A DNA stretch of 37,374 nt, taken from assembly GCA_025352985.1 (NCBI GenBank), contig JANXRL010000017.1, positions 1 to 37,374 on the forward strand, in the 5' to 3' direction. This document shows, one piece after another, positions 767 through 20,790 of the stretch; positions within the stretch are counted from its first letter, which is position 1; every line of letters starts with the position of its first letter. The notes under the pieces are model-generated. The model had not been told where the DNA came from and searched no databases. It saw only the letters and a program-made list of their open reading frames with translations. The DNA comes from Verrucomicrobiota bacterium. GTDB taxonomy: Bacteria > Verrucomicrobiota > Verrucomicrobiia > Opitutales > Opitutaceae. Made by a program: the position numbers and the translations under genes.

Positions 767-1882
767 CTATTTCCTCATTTTGTGTTCAATGGGGTGAAGT
801 AAGATGGCGGACGTCCCGCCGCCCACGCGGTCTTCTAGCGAGAGTTCTCCGCCGAGGTTGCGCAAGGTGTGTCGCGCGACCGTCAGGCCCATGCCGACGC
901 CCACGGTGTGCTTGGTGCTAATGAAGGGCTCGAACATGTGGTCGCGGATATTCTCGTCGATGCCATTGCCCGCATCGTCGATGGTGAGACGGACAAAACG
1001 GCCTTCGGTTTTTTCGACCAAGGAAGTGCGCAGCCAGATCGGACGCGCGTCGGCTGGTTTGTCGCCGTAGGATTCCCAGGCGTTGATCAATATCTTGCCA
1101 ACGATGTCCTCAAAAACCTCGACGTGTGTATCAATGGCCAGCGAGCCCAGTGGGTTTTCGATGACCACCGCCTGATTGATATTGGAATCGTTCCGGTAGC
1201 GCGCGACCGCTCCATCCAGCAGTTCGTCGAGCTTGCAGCGCGCAAGGGGAAAGCGTGACTTGATGATAAGTGAGCTGAGCTGGCGAATGATGACAACGAT
1301 GCGTTGCACCGCACTTTCGACTTGGGCGGCGTTACGCTTCACCTGCTCGGGTTTTTCATAGTGTGTCTTTATCAGATCCAGATAGCCGAGGACCACTCCG
1401 AGGAGGTTGTTGAGATTATGGGCGACTCCCTGGGTGACGGCACCGATCGTGGCGGCCCGGCGGGCTTCGGCAAGACGCCGTTGCAGATCGATCATCTCCC
1501 GGTTGATGGCGACAAAGCGGAGCTGGGTCTGCACGCGTGCGAGGGTTTCATCGAGGTCGATGGGCTTGGTGATGTAATCCACCGCGCCTACGCCCAAGCC
1601 CTCAATCTTGCCTTCTTTGTTGTTTCTGGCCGTAACGAAAATCACCGGTATGGCGCGGGAGGCTTCGTTAGCCTGCAAACGCTGGCATACTTCAATGCCA
1701 TCCATATCCGGCATCATCATATCAAGCAGGATGAGGTCGGGTTTGTTTTTTGCCACGCTGTCCAAGGCTTCCTGACCGTTGAAGGCGGTGGTTATTTCTA
1801 TGCCTTCCTTTTCCAGTTTGCGCTTAAGGAGCTGGACGTTGATGGGCTGATCATCGACGACCAGGATTTTTGGGGCAGGCAT
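767..1882 (-). CDS. Receiver-histidine kinase hybrid (receiver first)
   Basis: 371-aa soluble signalling protein with no membrane segment. Residues 1-120 are a CheY-like receiver: acidic pair D10/D11, phospho-acceptor D54 in LLDMMMPD, and K106 in TKP. Residues 125-205 form a dimerisation/phosphotransfer helix pair with H155 in GVAHNLNNLLG, the NtrB-like H-box. Residues 255-365 form the HATPase: N267 (N box), DDAGNGID (G1), FEPF (F box) and GVGMGL (G2). The receiver precedes the kinase, the reverse of most hybrid kinases, so phosphorylation of D54 by another kinase may gate the kinase core, or the protein may phosphorylate itself. It has no sensor domain. It lies 44 bp after folD and 23 bp before proC. 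Partner and signal are unknown. Confidence 0.9.
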   Translation of the reverse strand: MPAPKILVVDDQPINVQLLKRKLEKEGIEITTAFNGQEALDSVAKNKPDLILLDMMMPDMDGIEVCQRLQANEASRAIPVIFVTARNNKEGKIEGLGVGAVDYITKPIDLDETLARVQTQLRFVAINREMIDLQRRLAEARRAATIGAVTQGVAHNLNNLLGVVLGYLDLIKTHYEKPEQVKRNAAQVESAVQRIVVIIRQLSSLIIKSRFPLARCKLDELLDGAVARYRNDSNINQAVVIENPLGSLAIDTHVEVFEDIVGKILINAWESYGDKPADARPIWLRTSLVEKTEGRFVRLTIDDAGNGIDENIRDHMFEPFISTKHTVGVGMGLTVARHTLRNLGGELSLEDRVGGGTSAILLHPIEHKMRK

Positions 1883-14522: not shown

Positions 14523-15833
14523 TCAGGCTTTTTTCGCGTTCGCCGCGACCACGTAGGCGGCGAAGGGCGCCGACTGGGCCGGCGGGATGCGCACGTGGAG
14601 GTGGACGCCGTCGTCGGTCGTTTCTTCGCTTTGGACGTGCCCGATGGCGTGCAGCCGAGCTATGAGGTCGTGGCGGCTGTGGGGAATAAAAACTTCCGTC
14701 GAACCAAACTCGTCGGCGATCAGCTCGATGCAGTGGTCAACGAGGCTGTCGAGGTTCTGGCCCGAGTGCGCGCTGATGAGCAGGCCGTCGGGGGCGAGCA
14801 GACGGGCGCGGTGGATGTGGGCCTCGGTCGCGGCGTCCACTTTGTTGAAGACGGTGAGGATGCGTTTATCGGTCGCGCCGAGTTCCTTGAGCACGCCGAG
14901 GGTCGTCGCGTGATGGGCGGCGAGGTTGGGCGTGGTGATGTCGAGAACGTGGATGAGGAAGTCGGCGACGAGCGCCTCTTCGAGCGTGGCCTTGAACGCT
15001 TCGACGAGGCCGTGCGGAAGGCGGCGGATAAAGCCTACGGTGTCGGTGACGAGGAGCTTCTGGTTGCCGCGCAACTGGAGTTGGCGCGTGGTCGGGTCGA
15101 GCGTGGCGAAGAGCTTGTCCTCGGCGAGGACATGCGCGCCGGTGAGGGCGTTGAGGAGAGAGGATTTGCCGGCGTTAGTATAGCCGACGATGGCGGCCGT
15201 GGGAATGGGCACGCGCTGGCGTTTGTGACGCTGGACGCCGCGTTGTTTGCGGACGTCGAGCAGCTCGCGTTTGAGGCGGGTGATGCGGTCGTTGACGAGA
15301 CGGCGGTCTTGTTCGAGCTGGGTTTCGCCTTCGCCGCCCATGCCGGCGCCGCCACCGCCGCCACGTTGACGGGACAAGTGGGTCCAGGCGCGGGTGAGGC
15401 GGGGCAACGAATACTGCATGCGTGCGAGGGCGACTTGGAGGACGGCTTCGCGGGTGCTGGCGCGGTCGGCGAAGATGTCGAGGATGACTTCCTCGCGGTC
15501 GATGACGGCGAGCTCGGAGGCTTTTTCCCAGTTGCGCTGCTGGGCGGGGGAGAGGCTGTCGTCGAAGACGATGAGGTCGGCGTTGAGGGCCTTGGCCTCG
15601 GCGATGATTTCCTCGGTCTTGCCGCTGCCGAGGAGGGTGGCGGGCGTGGGGGCGCGGAGTTTGACGAGGATCTTGCCGACGACGGCGATGCGGAGATTTT
15701 CCACGAGCTCGACGAGTTCGGTGAGGAGTTCGTCGCCTTCACCGTCGGCCATGTCGTGGGTCTGAACGCCCACGAGGAAGGCGCGTTCGCAGCGTTTGGA
15801 GTCGGAGGGCGTGTTGTCGAGAAAGTCGGCCAT
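14523..15833 (-). CDS. hflX: Ribosome-associated GTPase HflX
   Basis: 436 aa from ATG 15831-15833 (MADFLDN); an upstream in-frame start exists. HflX splits or rescues stalled and heat-damaged ribosomes. N-terminal HflX domain (about 15-175) includes LLGSGKTEEI and FDDSLSPAQQRNWE, followed by the glycine-rich linker RQRGGGGGAGMGGEGETQLE with the invariant GEGETQLE. GTPase motifs: G1 GYTNAGKSSLLN, G3 DTVGFIRRLPHGLV, G4 NKVD. The C-terminus ends in a basic AKKA. Divergent from dnaX across 103 bp. Confidence 0.96.
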   Translation of the reverse strand: MADFLDNTPSDSKRCERAFLVGVQTHDMADGEGDELLTELVELVENLRIAVVGKILVKLRAPTPATLLGSGKTEEIIAEAKALNADLIVFDDSLSPAQQRNWEKASELAVIDREEVILDIFADRASTREAVLQVALARMQYSLPRLTRAWTHLSRQRGGGGGAGMGGEGETQLEQDRRLVNDRITRLKRELLDVRKQRGVQRHKRQRVPIPTAAIVGYTNAGKSSLLNALTGAHVLAEDKLFATLDPTTRQLQLRGNQKLLVTDTVGFIRRLPHGLVEAFKATLEEALVADFLIHVLDITTPNLAAHHATTLGVLKELGATDKRILTVFNKVDAATEAHIHRARLLAPDGLLISAHSGQNLDSLVDHCIELIADEFGSTEVFIPHSRHDLIARLHAIGHVQSEETTDDGVHLHVRIPPAQSAPFAAYVVAANAKKA

Positions 15834-15936
15834 TAAGGGGAGGTCCAAGGTGGGGCGGCGGGCAGGGAAGGTCAACCGTGCGGGCGCGATGAGTTTTCAG
15901 TTGCACCGGGCGCGATCCGCTTTGCACTAGCGCGCA

Positions 15937-17103
15937 GTGTCTTCGTCCTACCAAGTCATCGCACGCAAGTGGCGCCCGCAGACGTTTAACGACGTCGTCG
16001 GGCAGGACCATGTGATGCGCACGTTGAAAAACGCCATCGCGCGCAACCGCATCGCCCACGCCTACCTGTTCGTGGGGCCGCGCGGCACGGGCAAGACTTC
16101 GACGGCGCGCATCTTTGCCAAGGCGCTCAATTGCACCGGCGGGCCCAACGCCGACTTCGATCCGAAAGACCCCGCCGTGCAGTCCATCACCGAGGGCACG
16201 TCGATGGACGTGATCGAGATCGACGGCGCGTCTAACAACTCCGTGGATCAGATCCGCGACCTGCGTGACGACGTGCGCTACGCCCCAACGCAGGGGAAGT
16301 TCAAGATATACATCATCGACGAGGTTCACATGCTCTCCAACCAGGCGTTCAACGCGCTGTTGAAGACTCTCGAAGAGCCGCCCGAGCACGTGAAGTTTGT
16401 CTTTGCCACGACCGATGTGCAGAAGGTGCTGCCGACGATCCTTTCGCGCTGCCAGCGTTTCGACCTGAAGCCGATTCCGGACAACCTGATCGTGGGCCGC
16501 CTGAAGCAGATCGCCACCGACGAGAAGATACAGGTGACCGACGCCGCGCTCGCCTGCATCGCGCGCATGGCGGACGGCGGCATGCGCGACGCGCAGTCGA
16601 TTTTCGACCAGATGATTTCGTTCTGCGGCACGCAGATCGCCGAGCCGGACGTGCTGGATGTCTACGGTCTCGTCTCGGCCGAGAAAATCACGGCGCTGGC
16701 CGGAGCCGTCGCGGCGGGCGACCACAAGAAGATCATCTCAATCGTGGACGAGTGCGACGAAAGCGGACGCGACCTCGTGCGCCTGCTCACCGATTTGCAG
16801 GCGCTCGTGCGGCAGGCGCTGCTCGACGCCATCGCGAAGAATGGCCGCACGGATATTCTGGGCGGCGTCGCCCTCACGACGGAGCAGCTCACGCGCTTGC
16901 TCGACGGTCTGCGCGAGGGCGAGGGCGGCGTGAAGCTTGGGTTATCCGAGAAAATCAATTTCGAGGTGACGTTGCTTAAGGCGGTGGACGCGAGCCGTTC
17001 GCGGGCGATTGATTCGCTCATCAAGGAACTCGCCGCGCTGGCGGACGAATCCCCCGCCGTCGCGGCGTCTTCCGACGCGGGCGGCGAAAAAAAAAAGGGC
17101 TAA
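15937..17103 (+). CDS. dnaX: DNA polymerase III clamp-loader subunit, zero-frame (gamma-like) product
   Basis: 388 aa from a GTG start at 15937; no ATG precedes the conserved [14 protein letters not shown]. Motor ATPase of the clamp loader that opens and loads the beta clamp. AAA+ motifs: Walker [10 protein letters not shown] (about 48-56), Walker [11 protein letters not shown], sensor 1 [11 protein letters not shown], arginine-finger SRCQRF, sensor 2 [12 protein letters not shown]. Domain III (about 225-365) is present. The zinc-binding Cys cluster of E. coli DnaX is missing (see findings). The frame stops two codons after an A10 run; a -1 shift there continues for 155 more codons. As it stands the zero-frame product corresponds to gamma. 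Confidence 0.95.
17087..17097 (+). promoter_or_regulatory. Slippery A10-G site in dnaX, predicted -1 frameshift
   Basis: Ten consecutive A (17087-17096) then G. In the zero frame the codons are GAA AAA AAA AAG GGC TAA, so the stop is the second codon after the slippery heptamer A-AAA-AAG. A -1 slip (ribosomal), or one extra A in the mRNA (polymerase slippage), continues into an open frame to 17564. dnaX is the classical gene for this: ribosomal in E. coli, transcriptional on an A-run in Thermus. A homopolymer sequencing error could give the same picture. Confidence 0.75.
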
Positions 17104-17564
17104 TTGAGCGGTTGGAGATGCGGTTGTCGGCCGTGCTTGAGGCGGATCGTGTCGCGCAGCCGTTGATAACGAATCCGCCGGAGGACGCGCCCGACGAGGA
17201 TGGTGGAGACGAGGTTCAGCCGCATATTCCGTCGGTTGAGGTGGCGGCGATCGCTGCGGCGACAGCGACGACGGGCACGACGGGCGCCCCGACGTTTGAC
17301 GAGGAAGGCCCGGTGTGGCCCGATGCGTCGGCGGAGTCGGCGATGCGCGCGGAAGTGGCGGAGCGAGGAGAGACGTTGAATTCCAAAGCGACGCGCGAGC
17401 TGGCTGAGGCGGCCGCCGAAGCCGCAGCGGAGAAAAAAGACCTGCCCACCCTCGGCGACCTCGTGAACCGACTCCCCGACGACGTGCGGGAGACGTTGGG
17501 AGATCTCTTCGCCGTCAAGTGGACGAAGGTCATCCGCGTGCCCCGCAAAGTTCTTAAGGAGTAG
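17097..17564 (+). CDS. dnaX: -1 frame extension of dnaX (tau-specific C-terminus)
   Basis: 155 codons in the -1 frame after the A-run, starting [13 protein letters not shown] and ending PRKVLKE. Joined to the first 387 codons this gives a 542-aa tau-like protein, close to the size of other tau subunits. Composition fits a tau tail: acidic, Pro/Ala/Thr-rich linker (about residues 20-105 of the extension), then a compact conserved-looking end [23 protein letters not shown] with basic terminus. In tau this part contacts the replicative helicase and the polymerase alpha subunit. The frame has no good independent start (TTG 17112 or ATG 17118 without ribosome site), which favours extension over a separate gene. 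Confidence 0.7.
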
Positions 17565-17622: not shown

Positions 17623-20600
17623 ATGTCCGCGCCCTTCGCCCTCAAACCCACGCACAAGGCCGTGCGCGCCTATTATCTGGCGCTCTCGCAACTGGCCAAC
17701 GTCGGGGCGGCTCACGAATCCGCCGTGCGGGCGGCGTTTGACCAGTTGATCGAGGCCGGCGCCGGTCCCCTTGGCTGGACGCTCGTGCGCGAATACGCGC
17801 TCACCCGCAAGGGCACCGTCCCCCTCAAGCTCGACGGTGCGCTGCTCGACTCCTACCGCCTCGTCCACGGCGTGATCGAGGCCAAGGACGATGCCGACGA
17901 TCTCAAGCGCGAGATGGTCGCCAAGCTCAAGCTCGGCTACCCCGGCAAAAACATCCTCTTCTGGCAGCCCCGCCGCGCCATCCTCGTGCAGGACGGCAAG
18001 GTCGTGCTCGACTACTATCTCGATACGAAGCCCGAGCAACTGGTCGAGCTTTTGGAAAAGTTCTTTAGCTACACGGAGCCCGCCATCGCCGACTGGGCGC
18101 GCGCCGCCGAGGAGTTCAAGGAGCGCGTGGCCGAGCTTGGGGCCAGCCTAGGCACGCTTATCCGCCGGGCGCGCGGCGCGGAGGGCACGCAACCCAACAA
18201 GAAGTTCGTGGCGGCTTTCAACGACTTCACCGAAGTCTGCCGCGCCGCCATCAACCCCGGCCTTTCCGTCGAGGCCGTCGAGGAGATGCTCATCCAGCAC
18301 CTGCTCACCGCGCGTCTCTTCACCTCGGTTTTTCGCAATCCCGACTTCATCCGCCGCAACGTCGTCGCGGTTGAGATTGAGAAGGTGATCGAGTCCCTCG
18401 CTTCGGGCCATTTCGACCGGGCCGATTTTCTTAAAAAACTCGACCGCTTCTACCTCGCCATTGAGCACGCCGCCGCGACCTTGGAGGATTTTTCGGAGAA
18501 GCAGAAGTTCCTCAACACGGTTTACGAAAAGTTCTTCCAGGGCTTCGCCGTGAAGGTGGCCGACACGATGGGCATCGTTTACACGCCGCCCGCCATCGTG
18601 GGCTTCATGATCGAGAGCATCCGCGAGCTGCTGAAGACGGAGTTCGGCAAGGGGCTGGGCGACGCGGGCGTCCACTTCCTCGATCCGTTCACCGGCACGG
18701 GCAACTTCCTCGTCCACCTCCTGCGCGCCCTGCCCAAGACGGCGTTGCGCAAAAAATATCTCGGCGAGCTGTGGGCCAACGAGATCATGCTGCTGCCCTA
18801 CTACATCGCGGCGCTGAACCTGGAGCACGAGTATTTCGAGGCGACGGGCGAGTATGAGCCGTTCCCCGGCCTGTGCCTGGTGGACACCTTTGAACTGGCC
18901 GAGCCGCGCGACACGGAGTTTGAGTTCATGACCGCCGCCAACACCGAGCGCGTGAACGCGCAAAAGAAGGCGCCTATCCGCGTGATCCTCGGCAACCCGC
19001 CCTACAACGCGAACCAGCAAGACGAGAACGACAACAACAAGAACCGGAAATACCCCCGGCTCGATGGGCGGATCAAAAATACCTATGCGGCAGATTCTAA
19101 GGCGACCTTGCTCAATAAACTGAGCGATCCCTACATCAAATCTCTACGCTGGGCCAGTGACCGGATAGGCGAAGAAGGCATCGTCGCCTTGGTGACCAAC
19201 GGAGGTTATCTCGATGGTATTGCCACTGATGGCGTCCGTTTCCATCTCGCACAGGATTTCGATGCTATCTACGTTGTCGATCTTGGCGGCAATGTGCGAA
19301 AGAATCCGAAGCTCTCAGGCACAACTCACAACGTCTTTGGCATCCAAGTTGGAGTGAGCATAGCGCTTTTTGTCCGCCACAAACAAAAAGAGTCAAAGAA
19401 ACGAAAGGCCGTCATTCGCTATGCCGCCCTCGGCGATGACTGGAAGAAGGAACGGAAATGGGAGTGGCTCGAAGAGAAGCAAAGTGTCGCCGGTGTGAGG
19501 TGGCGGACGCTCAAACCTGACGCACGAAACTCTTGGTTGCACGATGGAGAAAGTGCCGGGTTTGATAAATTTATTCCGATCAGTTCTAAAAAAACCAAGG
19601 CGCTTGATAGTCTCGATGCGCAGGCGATCTTTCGCACTTATTTCCTCGGGGTTTCAACCAATCGGGATTCAGTCGTCTATGACTTCGACCATGAACGCTT
19701 AGCGCAGCGCGTGGAGCAATTCTGTGATGATTATAACGCGGAGGTTGTGCGTTGGAAAATGAAAGGACGACCTGAACAGACCGATAATTTCGTGCGCTAC
19801 GAGAAGGTGAAATGGAGCGAAGGTCTTAAAAACAACCTGCGAGCCGAGCTACTCGTTGAGTATGATAAAAAGAGAATTTGTTCAGCCACTTATCGACCGT
19901 TCACCAATCGTTATCTTTACCTAGATCCCTTGCTTATTGATCGCCCAGGTTTGGCCGAGCGAATTGGTAGATCTTCGAAAGCAGATAACTCGTGCATCTG
20001 CGTGTCGGGTCCAGGCTCATTTCGGCCATTTCAAGCTCTGGCAGTTAGCTCCATCGCTGATCTGCATTTAGCCGGTGACTCACAGTGCTTCCCCCTCTAC
20101 ACCTACGACTCAGACGGCGGGAGTCGGCGGGACAACGTGACGGACTGGGCGTTGGCGCAGTTCAAGGCGCGTTACCCGCAGGCCAAGGTCACCAAGGCGG
20201 CGATTTTCCACTACGTTTACGCGGTGCTGCATCATCCGCAGTATCGCGAGAAATACGCGGCCAACCTGCGCCGCGAGTTGCCGCGCATCCCGTTTGCCGA
20301 CGACTTCGCCGCGTTTGCCAAGGCGGGCGAAAAGCTCGCCGCGCTGCACACCGGCTATGAGTCGCAGAAGGAATTTAAATTGAAGCGCGTCGAGACGCCC
20401 GGCGCGAAGCTCGACCTGCGGGTGGAGCGCATGAAGCTGGCCAAGGACAAGGCGTCGCTCGTTTACAACGACTACCTCGCGCTCGCGGGCATCCCGGCGG
20501 CGGCGCACGAGTATCGGCTGGGCAACCGCTCGGCGCTGGAATGGGTGATCGACCAATACCGCGTGGAGCGCGACGAGCGGGGCGAGATCACGAGCGACCC

Positions 20601-20790
20601 GAACCGGGCGGACGACGAGGAGTATGTTTTACGCCTCGTCGGCCAGGTGGTGACGGTAAGCGTGGAGACGATGAAGCTCGTGAAGGCGTTGCCGCCACTG
20701 GAACCACCTGTCGCCGGCTATACGCAGGCCGAAATGGATGCGGCGCATGTTTACACGGTGGACGAGGAATCGTCCGGCGGCGGCGCCTGA
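17623..20790 (+). CDS. Single-chain restriction-modification enzyme (type ISP/IIG-like, N6-adenine methylase)
   Basis: 1055 aa from ATG 17623. Residues 1-130 resemble a PD-(D/E)xK nuclease: D76, then E86-A-K88 in VIEAKD, with a following beta strand NILFWQPRRAILVQ. A helical coupler (about 150-310) precedes the methylase: DPFTGTGNFLV (D354, SAM binding) and NPPY (458-461), the gamma-class N6-adenine catalytic motif. DLGGNVRKNPKL and HNVFGIQVGVSI are typical of type ISP/LlaBIII-like enzymes. From about codon 485 to 825 the DNA is AT-richer and presumably encodes the target-recognition domain; the GC-rich end (about 826-1055) matches the conserved C-terminal region. No RecA helicase lies between nuclease and methylase, unlike LlaGI/LlaBIII. 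Cleaves unmethylated foreign DNA and protects self DNA; the site is unknown. Confidence 0.88.
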   Translation: MSAPFALKPTHKAVRAYYLALSQLANVGAAHESAVRAAFDQLIEAGAGPLGWTLVREYALTRKGTVPLKLDGALLDSYRLVHGVIEAKDDADDLKREMVAKLKLGYPGKNILFWQPRRAILVQDGKVVLDYYLDTKPEQLVELLEKFFSYTEPAIADWARAAEEFKERVAELGASLGTLIRRARGAEGTQPNKKFVAAFNDFTEVCRAAINPGLSVEAVEEMLIQHLLTARLFTSVFRNPDFIRRNVVAVEIEKVIESLASGHFDRADFLKKLDRFYLAIEHAAATLEDFSEKQKFLNTVYEKFFQGFAVKVADTMGIVYTPPAIVGFMIESIRELLKTEFGKGLGDAGVHFLDPFTGTGNFLVHLLRALPKTALRKKYLGELWANEIMLLPYYIAALNLEHEYFEATGEYEPFPGLCLVDTFELAEPRDTEFEFMTAANTERVNAQKKAPIRVILGNPPYNANQQDENDNNKNRKYPRLDGRIKNTYAADSKATLLNKLSDPYIKSLRWASDRIGEEGIVALVTNGGYLDGIATDGVRFHLAQDFDAIYVVDLGGNVRKNPKLSGTTHNVFGIQVGVSIALFVRHKQKESKKRKAVIRYAALGDDWKKERKWEWLEEKQSVAGVRWRTLKPDARNSWLHDGESAGFDKFIPISSKKTKALDSLDAQAIFRTYFLGVSTNRDSVVYDFDHERLAQRVEQFCDDYNAEVVRWKMKGRPEQTDNFVRYEKVKWSEGLKNNLRAELLVEYDKKRICSATYRPFTNRYLYLDPLLIDRPGLAERIGRSSKADNSCICVSGPGSFRPFQALAVSSIADLHLAGDSQCFPLYTYDSDGGSRRDNVTDWALAQFKARYPQAKVTKAAIFHYVYAVLHHPQYREKYAANLRRELPRIPFADDFAAFAKAGEKLAALHTGYESQKEFKLKRVETPGAKLDLRVERMKLAKDKASLVYNDYLALAGIPAAAHEYRLGNRSALEWVIDQYRVERDERGEITSDPNRADDEEYVLRLVGQVVTVSVETMKLVKALPPLEPPVAGYTQAEMDAAHVYTVDEESSGGGA

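Follow-up and report, generated by a model that had tools for sequence, protein, structure and literature searches.

The dnaX gene of an Opitutaceae bacterium (Verrucomicrobiota) carries a run of ten A at the point where its frame splits into a short and a long product. We consider it probable, at roughly three chances in four and judging from the sequence and its relatives, that this gene makes both gamma and tau by transcriptional slippage. The gene lies in a DNA stretch of 37,374 nt, hereafter the window, which belongs to an assembly of 2.88 Mb in 199 contigs (contig G000:C198); the closest match with a name is an Opitutaceae MAG, at 95%. Among relatives of the same order, Opitutales, the run is kept while the DNA frame of the tau extension drifts, and this combination suggests that the RNA polymerase is what slips.

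The dnaX gene of the window

The zero frame (15937-17103, plus strand) codes for a gamma ORF of 388 aa that goes from GTG 15937, a start assigned by the ORF tool and predicted only, to the TAA at 17101-17103, and that comprises, in order, the AAA+ clamp-loader ATPase, the lid, domain III and the slippery Lys run. The gene is a genuine dnaX: its core reaches 426 bits against TIGR02397 (cut-off 250), contains the clamp-loader domains PF13177, PF22608 and PF12169 of Pfam and is matched by the DnaX chains of the PDB (best E 3e-78).

Downstream from domain III the codons in the zero frame are GAA AAA AAA AAG GGC TAA. The A10 run occupies 17087-17096 (plus strand) and is followed by GGG, and an in-phase A_AAA_AAG heptamer, the E. 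coli-type ribosomal site, lies at 17091-17097. The tau extension is written on the same strand in the -1 frame, which is also the frame obtained by inserting one A, from 17097 to 17564, where it ends with TAG (17562-17564). Counted from the coordinates, tau has 542 aa with one A added and the protein has 388 aa as written. The frame obtained by removing one A stops at TGA 17105-17107, 3 codons past the run, hence gamma would come from two frames and tau from one. The extension consists of an acidic, Ala/Pro-rich linker and a conserved end, whose C-terminal block LPxxxRxxLxxLFRxxFxxVxx (17433-17561, plus strand) is found in relatives in whichever frame is open. A G+C-rich hairpin (17055-17086, plus strand, -20.1 kcal/mol) abuts the run on its 5' side.

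The first-pass annotation had described the run, the stop and the open -1 frame, and had predicted a gamma of 388 aa and a tau of 542 aa from a single dnaX: the former were all confirmed in the sequence, and the two lengths agree with the coordinates of a gene that TIGR02397 recognises. Its further statement, that the polarity is reversed with respect to E. coli, with the short product in the zero frame and the long one obtained by slippage, is supported by both the sequence and the relatives. It mentions neither the early TGA of the third frame nor the movement of tau among three frames, gives no published precedent for the reversed layout, and leaves the choice between transcriptional and ribosomal slippage to RNA reads.

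The run exceeds what chance would give: only 5 sites of the 2.88 Mb genome have nine or more A in a row, and the one at dnaX is the sole A10. The Lys codons of the dnaX core are AAG in 17 cases and AAA in 4 and, over 56 Opitutaceae, AAG accounts for 770/1087; since core Lys is mostly AAG, the A-run is kept against the codon habit of the gene.

As regards the neighbours, the gene upstream (14523-15875, minus strand) codes for a GTPase with PF13167, PF16360 and PF01926, presumably of HflX type. Downstream, at 17623-20790 (plus strand), there is a type ISP / IIG restriction-methylation enzyme (Type_ISP_C 330 bits, PADLOC REase_MTase_IIG 743 bits), which starts about 60 bases past the tau stop if ATG 17623 is its start.

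Conservation of the A-run in Opitutales

We considered 202 Opitutales loci, one per genome. They include 50 of a 56-genome set, the remaining 6 of which had no dnaX core; the other loci come from a search of 273 genomes, 252 of which matched, and 180 of these 252 were read, hand-picked over genera and families. Of the 202 loci, 182 had nine or more A in a row at core residue 364-394, and 176 of the 189 runs of length 7 or more were A9 or A10. Among 53 Verrucomicrobiia members outside Opitutales (part of 94 with a match) no A-run of 9 or more was found, and their dnaX frame is uninterrupted, with 442-647 aa (three exceed the fetched piece). The first-pass annotation had named relatives with an uninterrupted dnaX and no homopolymer as evidence against its reading: such relatives are what we find outside the order, whereas the order itself retains the run.

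For the frame counts 22 loci were excluded, which left 180 usable ones. Precisely, 17 had a run of only 7 or none at all (among these G030, cut by a contig end), 4 were cut by a contig end behind an A10 and 1 had an A8 beyond the stop.

Within Opitutaceae 57 loci were read and 56 were usable, 55 of which have the arrangement of the window, namely A9 or A10 with a stop behind it in the zero frame, and the one-A-added frame open. Ten of these come from single-contig genomes (G015, G016, G025, G032, G077, G278, G288, G336, G348 and G352), and the layout is also that of the isolate Cephaloticoccus primus (L037). A continuous dnaX frame was found in only one of the 56 usable loci (G367, with A12). 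The run and the split frame are thus not a sequencing error, since the same layout is observed in relatives, the ten single-contig Opitutaceae included; as far as the architecture is concerned, this also counters the A11 or A8 genome error that the first-pass annotation had left as an alternative.

Two further observations concern single loci. In L244 (G291, family f21) dnaX has no run of 7 or more and ends at 379 aa; tau by insertion is the form of all 13 usable loci in this family. In L313, a locus of the same genome as the window, another A9 run (1501-1509, minus strand) lies inside a 608-codon frame that is open throughout.

The frame of tau across the order

The tau frame in the DNA was assigned at the 180 usable loci: in 115 (window included) tau is reached with one A added, 41 have it in the zero frame, and in 24 it is reached with one A removed. 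In the last 24 loci tau requires a +1 shift, not a -1 shift. Two loci, G222 and G270, were assigned the zero state manually, since the frame is decided by homology and not by length. As a check independent of length we used an HMM trained on the insertion-frame ends only, which gave its best match in the assigned frame for 64 of the 65 other loci (52 with E below 0.01, 12 weaker); among these 65 loci none was discordant and one had no match.

The tau DNA frame therefore drifts within Opitutales, with about 11-17 changes by parsimony. On a FastTree of 180 rows we counted 17 state changes, which became 13 when only A9/A10 loci were considered and 11 once 10 rows of odd length or standing alone were removed; a quick maximum-likelihood tree (101 rows, 78 with one of the three states) gave 15 changes. 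These counts are approximate, because 25/98 inner branches of the quick maximum-likelihood tree are poorly supported and several branches are long. Two single-contig genomes (G169, G223) have the deletion state, and a genome in two contigs (G054) has the zero state. Congeners can differ by one A (A11 in G203, A10 in G190; likewise the pairs G200/G213 and G353/G254); some of these one-base differences may be assembly errors, and the case for frame drift does not need such switches. The runs occur in all three codon phases and are followed by G, C or T.

The tau extension as a protein

The tau end is conserved throughout Opitutales. For 11 congeners (55 pairs) the median dN/dS was 0.076 in the core, 0.21 in the extension and 1.8-1.9 in the extension read in either shifted frame, the ratio for the extension being rough since its median dS (1.27) is near saturation. 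The extension is under protein-level selection, and conservation of both the run and the out-of-frame extension in related dnaX genes, the check that the first-pass annotation had proposed, is what we obtained.

No convincing match to the extension, and no known domain, was found in Pfam, NCBIfam or PDB. A comparison by hhalign of the Opitutales tau end with the uninterrupted tau ends (LFKGxIVEVR) of 50 other class members gave a weak likeness, with P 0.005 and a probability of only 2.9% (controls P 0.84 and 0.91). The best hit of the tau-end HMM in 73 "outgroup" proteins, which include one order member (L153), had E 0.03 and lay at the extreme end of one protein from outside the order. The extension would presumably bind the polymerase and work like tau.

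Early stops in the two other frames

In 158 of the 180 loci both non-tau frames stop within 10 codons past the run, whereas the number expected from other positions in the same genes is 18.5. After thinning by identity the proportion was 99/120 at 90%, 50/64 at 80% and 21/26 at 70%. Of the 115 loci of the insertion group, 95% have a stop within 10 codons in the deletion frame (31% at control positions); early closure of the insertion frame is less frequent in the zero group, at 78% (control 37%). In loci with the insertion state the deletion frame is never entered by -1 ribosomal shifting.

In Opitutaceae the early deletion-frame stop persists after thinning (34/35 at 90%, 8/9 at 80%). The motif CTGATTGA, which carries this stop, is common to 28 of 55 Opitutaceae, hence the early deletion-frame stops are not all independent. 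The single-contig genome G025 has no early stop in this frame, which goes on for 81 codons.

Mechanism

The mechanism that we propose starts with the RNA polymerase, which on the A10 run would produce mRNAs with 9, 10, 11 or more A. Those with A10 and A9 would meet a stop within 1-3 codons and yield gamma, and those with A11, i.e. with one extra A, would be read through the linker and the conserved end and yield tau, the translation of the slipped mRNAs being normal. Selection would preserve a run of A9-A10, an open frame for tau and a prompt stop in each of the remaining frames; which DNA frame tau occupies would matter little, because slippage fills all three.

We infer from these comparisons that slippage occurs, that the RNA polymerase and not the ribosome is the slipping agent, and likewise any ratio between the products. 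The evidence favours transcriptional over ribosomal slippage and does not prove it. Frame drift with the run retained suggests that the RNA polymerase slips, and three observations agree better with slippage of the RNA polymerase than with a programmed shift of the ribosome: tau occurs in all three directions, the runs stand in all phases with G, C or T after them, and frames that a shift in one direction would leave unused are closed. According to PMC1088944, a run length of 9 is where selection against slippage becomes visible in a large share of 108 genomes. For the order as a whole we lean towards a broader reading, although with less confidence than for the window: dnaX of Opitutales may be frame-agnostic, with slippage supplying all three frames, the genomic frame of tau nearly neutral (about 11 or more moves by parsimony), and selection acting only on the run and on the stops that close the two other frames.

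The best surviving alternative, which we regard as unlikely, is a programmed -1 ribosomal frameshift at A_AAA_AAG with the roles reversed, so that ribosomes staying in frame would make gamma and shifted ones tau. An in-phase heptamer is found in the window, in 43 of the 55 Opitutaceae loci with tau by insertion and in 75 of the 115 of the order. One tRNA-Lys, with anticodon UUU, was found among the 37 tRNAs of the genome (92% complete); in E. coli likewise a single tRNA-Lys reads both codons, as stated in PMC5009743. With an in-phase heptamer and a single tRNA-Lys-UUU, a ribosomal -1 share is possible in the window. Moreover, reversed dnaX candidates seem to be ribosomal in the account of Atkins 2016 (PMC5009743), where Chlorobium phaeobacteroides has potential stimulators.

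Other observations speak against such a frameshift. In 12 of the 55 Opitutaceae loci the run is followed by C instead of G. A -1 shift cannot yield tau in the 24 relatives with the deletion state, is not needed in the 41 with the zero state and leaves the early stop of the deletion frame without a reason. As regards stimulators, SD-like motifs were found in 5/55 Opitutaceae loci against 2.5 expected, and none in the window, where they were searched for at 17072-17085. In other families there is an excess (21/124 against 6.3 expected), on which we did not build because 5 of the 21 cases belong to one family and the motifs differ. Downstream from the run no consensus structure was found over the 55 Opitutaceae. 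In 11 congeners RNAalifold gave a downstream stem slightly better than in shuffled columns (-9.0 vs -5.7 +/- 2.6), a point in favour of the frameshift. The 50 nt starting 20 nt past the run were more stable in Opitutaceae than windows of the same gene (mean z -1.0), whereas against dinucleotide shuffles the effect was much weaker (-0.4 to -0.6). A conserved downstream stem-loop or SD acting as stimulator was thus not found family-wide.

We also considered the hairpin upstream from the run as a general aid to slippage, and rejected it, since the excess is weak and varies within the genus. The 17055-17086 hairpin is also present in G005 and G006 and absent from the other congeners. The proportion of loci with an upstream hairpin z below -1.5 was 11-27%, depending on the set and the window length, compared with 6-10% in the controls.

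Much less probable is a second ribosomal explanation, in which ribosomes slide in both directions on poly(A) and the mRNA length is correct. It is equally blind to frame, it would account for the double stops, and sliding on A-runs was demonstrated in E. coli extract and cells, as reported in PMC4363877. In E. coli extract, however, A9 and A10 gave little product and A11 gave it robustly (same source), whereas here 176/189 runs are A9 or A10, and many runs contain only two full AAA codons (A10 in phase 1, A9 in phases 1 and 2).

It is more improbable still that the downstream ORF is a separate protein with a new start behind the gamma stop. A TTG-started ORF of 150 aa is present at 17112; an ATG or GTG within 20 codons past the run in the tau frame was found in 17/55 Opitutaceae, less than in the controls (0.64, TTG being uncounted), and the segment is fused in frame to the core in the 41 zero-state relatives. 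Finally, that a normal dnaX was split by an error of sequencing or assembly, or is decaying as a pseudogene, has a negligible probability even though homopolymers are error-prone and the window assembly is in 199 contigs, being contradicted by the arrangement of the 55/56 usable Opitutaceae, ten of them single-contig, and by the median dN/dS of the extension (0.21).

Origin and loss of the arrangement

Seven planctomycete loci (L087, L089, L091, L092, L104, L111, L114) all have tau in the zero frame and an A9/A10 run, which lies at core residue 384-408; at least one other frame is closed within 3 codons, and in six of the seven both are closed within 5. These runs imply that the slippage device is older than Opitutales or arose more than once, and Thermus-type slippage may be general in planctomycetes. 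The dnaX of a gammaproteobacterial MAG (L108, SI039_bin4) has the form of the window, with A9, a zero-frame stop after 2 codons and a one-A-added frame open for 202 codons.

The small-genome families f6 (1 locus), f7 (4) and f61 (2) lack a run of 9 and nevertheless retain a tau end in one frame, a point against the proposed mechanism; in f6 and f7 this in-frame tau end is compact, with the linker almost gone. In L203, L209 and L211 (f64) and in L201 and L208 (f63) DnaX ends at 353-369 aa with no in-frame tau end; these small-genome Opitutales possibly have gamma-only clamp loaders.

Comparison with known systems

The reversed layout itself is an already published type. Antonov 2013 (PMC3711429) reported reversed dnaX in 17 genes of 12 genera, where the zero frame codes for gamma and tau is reached by a -1 change only; poly-A was present in 12 of the 17 genes, nine of them with 10 As, and transcriptional realignment was favoured. 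The window resembles these genes in having two ORFs, poly-A at their junction, a zero-frame stop at the run and a -1 tau kept in relatives. Opitutales as an order differ in that the -1, zero and +1 forms occur, with repeated switches. Opitutus and Coraliomargarita are absent from the main text of PMC3711429, and Opitutales may be in its supplement. In the open-licence dnaX literature, supplements aside, we found neither a tau in the +1 frame nor frame drift in Opitutales; in particular, neither appears in the available text of PMC3711429, PMC5009743, PMC1088944, PMC4363877, PMC3290774 and PMC3017870.

In Thermus thermophilus dnaX undergoes transcriptional slippage on A9 (PMC1088944 and PMC5009743, in the parts citing Larsen 2000). 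The window shares with it a late-gene run of at least 9 A and the closure of both non-tau frames nearby; in Thermus, however, tau is in the zero frame, as in 41/180 members of the order, whereas the window requires an added A. In E. coli tau is in the zero frame and gamma is produced by a -1 ribosomal frameshift (PMC5009743 and PMC3711429). The in-phase A_AAA_AAG and the N-terminal part common to gamma and tau are found in the window as well, which differs from E. coli in the reversed frame roles, in the longer A-run and in that a conserved SD or stem-loop was not found. With an efficiency near 50%, a change of one nucleotide could reverse the roles, as remarked by Atkins 2016 (PMC5009743).

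Opitutales dnaX is also comparable to the paramyxovirus P gene, since in both cases polymerase stuttering gives, or would give, several frames. In that gene the product of the faithful copy differs between lineages. It differs from dnaX in that the polymerase is a viral RNA polymerase, the added base is G and the gene is unrelated (for P-gene editing see PMC8204654).

Significance

Gene callers may list a dnaX of this kind as gamma alone or as broken. A long product written in any of three frames within one order is a natural experiment on a replication gene. It separates transcriptional from ribosomal slippage, raises the question of how far gamma is needed, and shows selection on the length of the run and on both off-frame stops.
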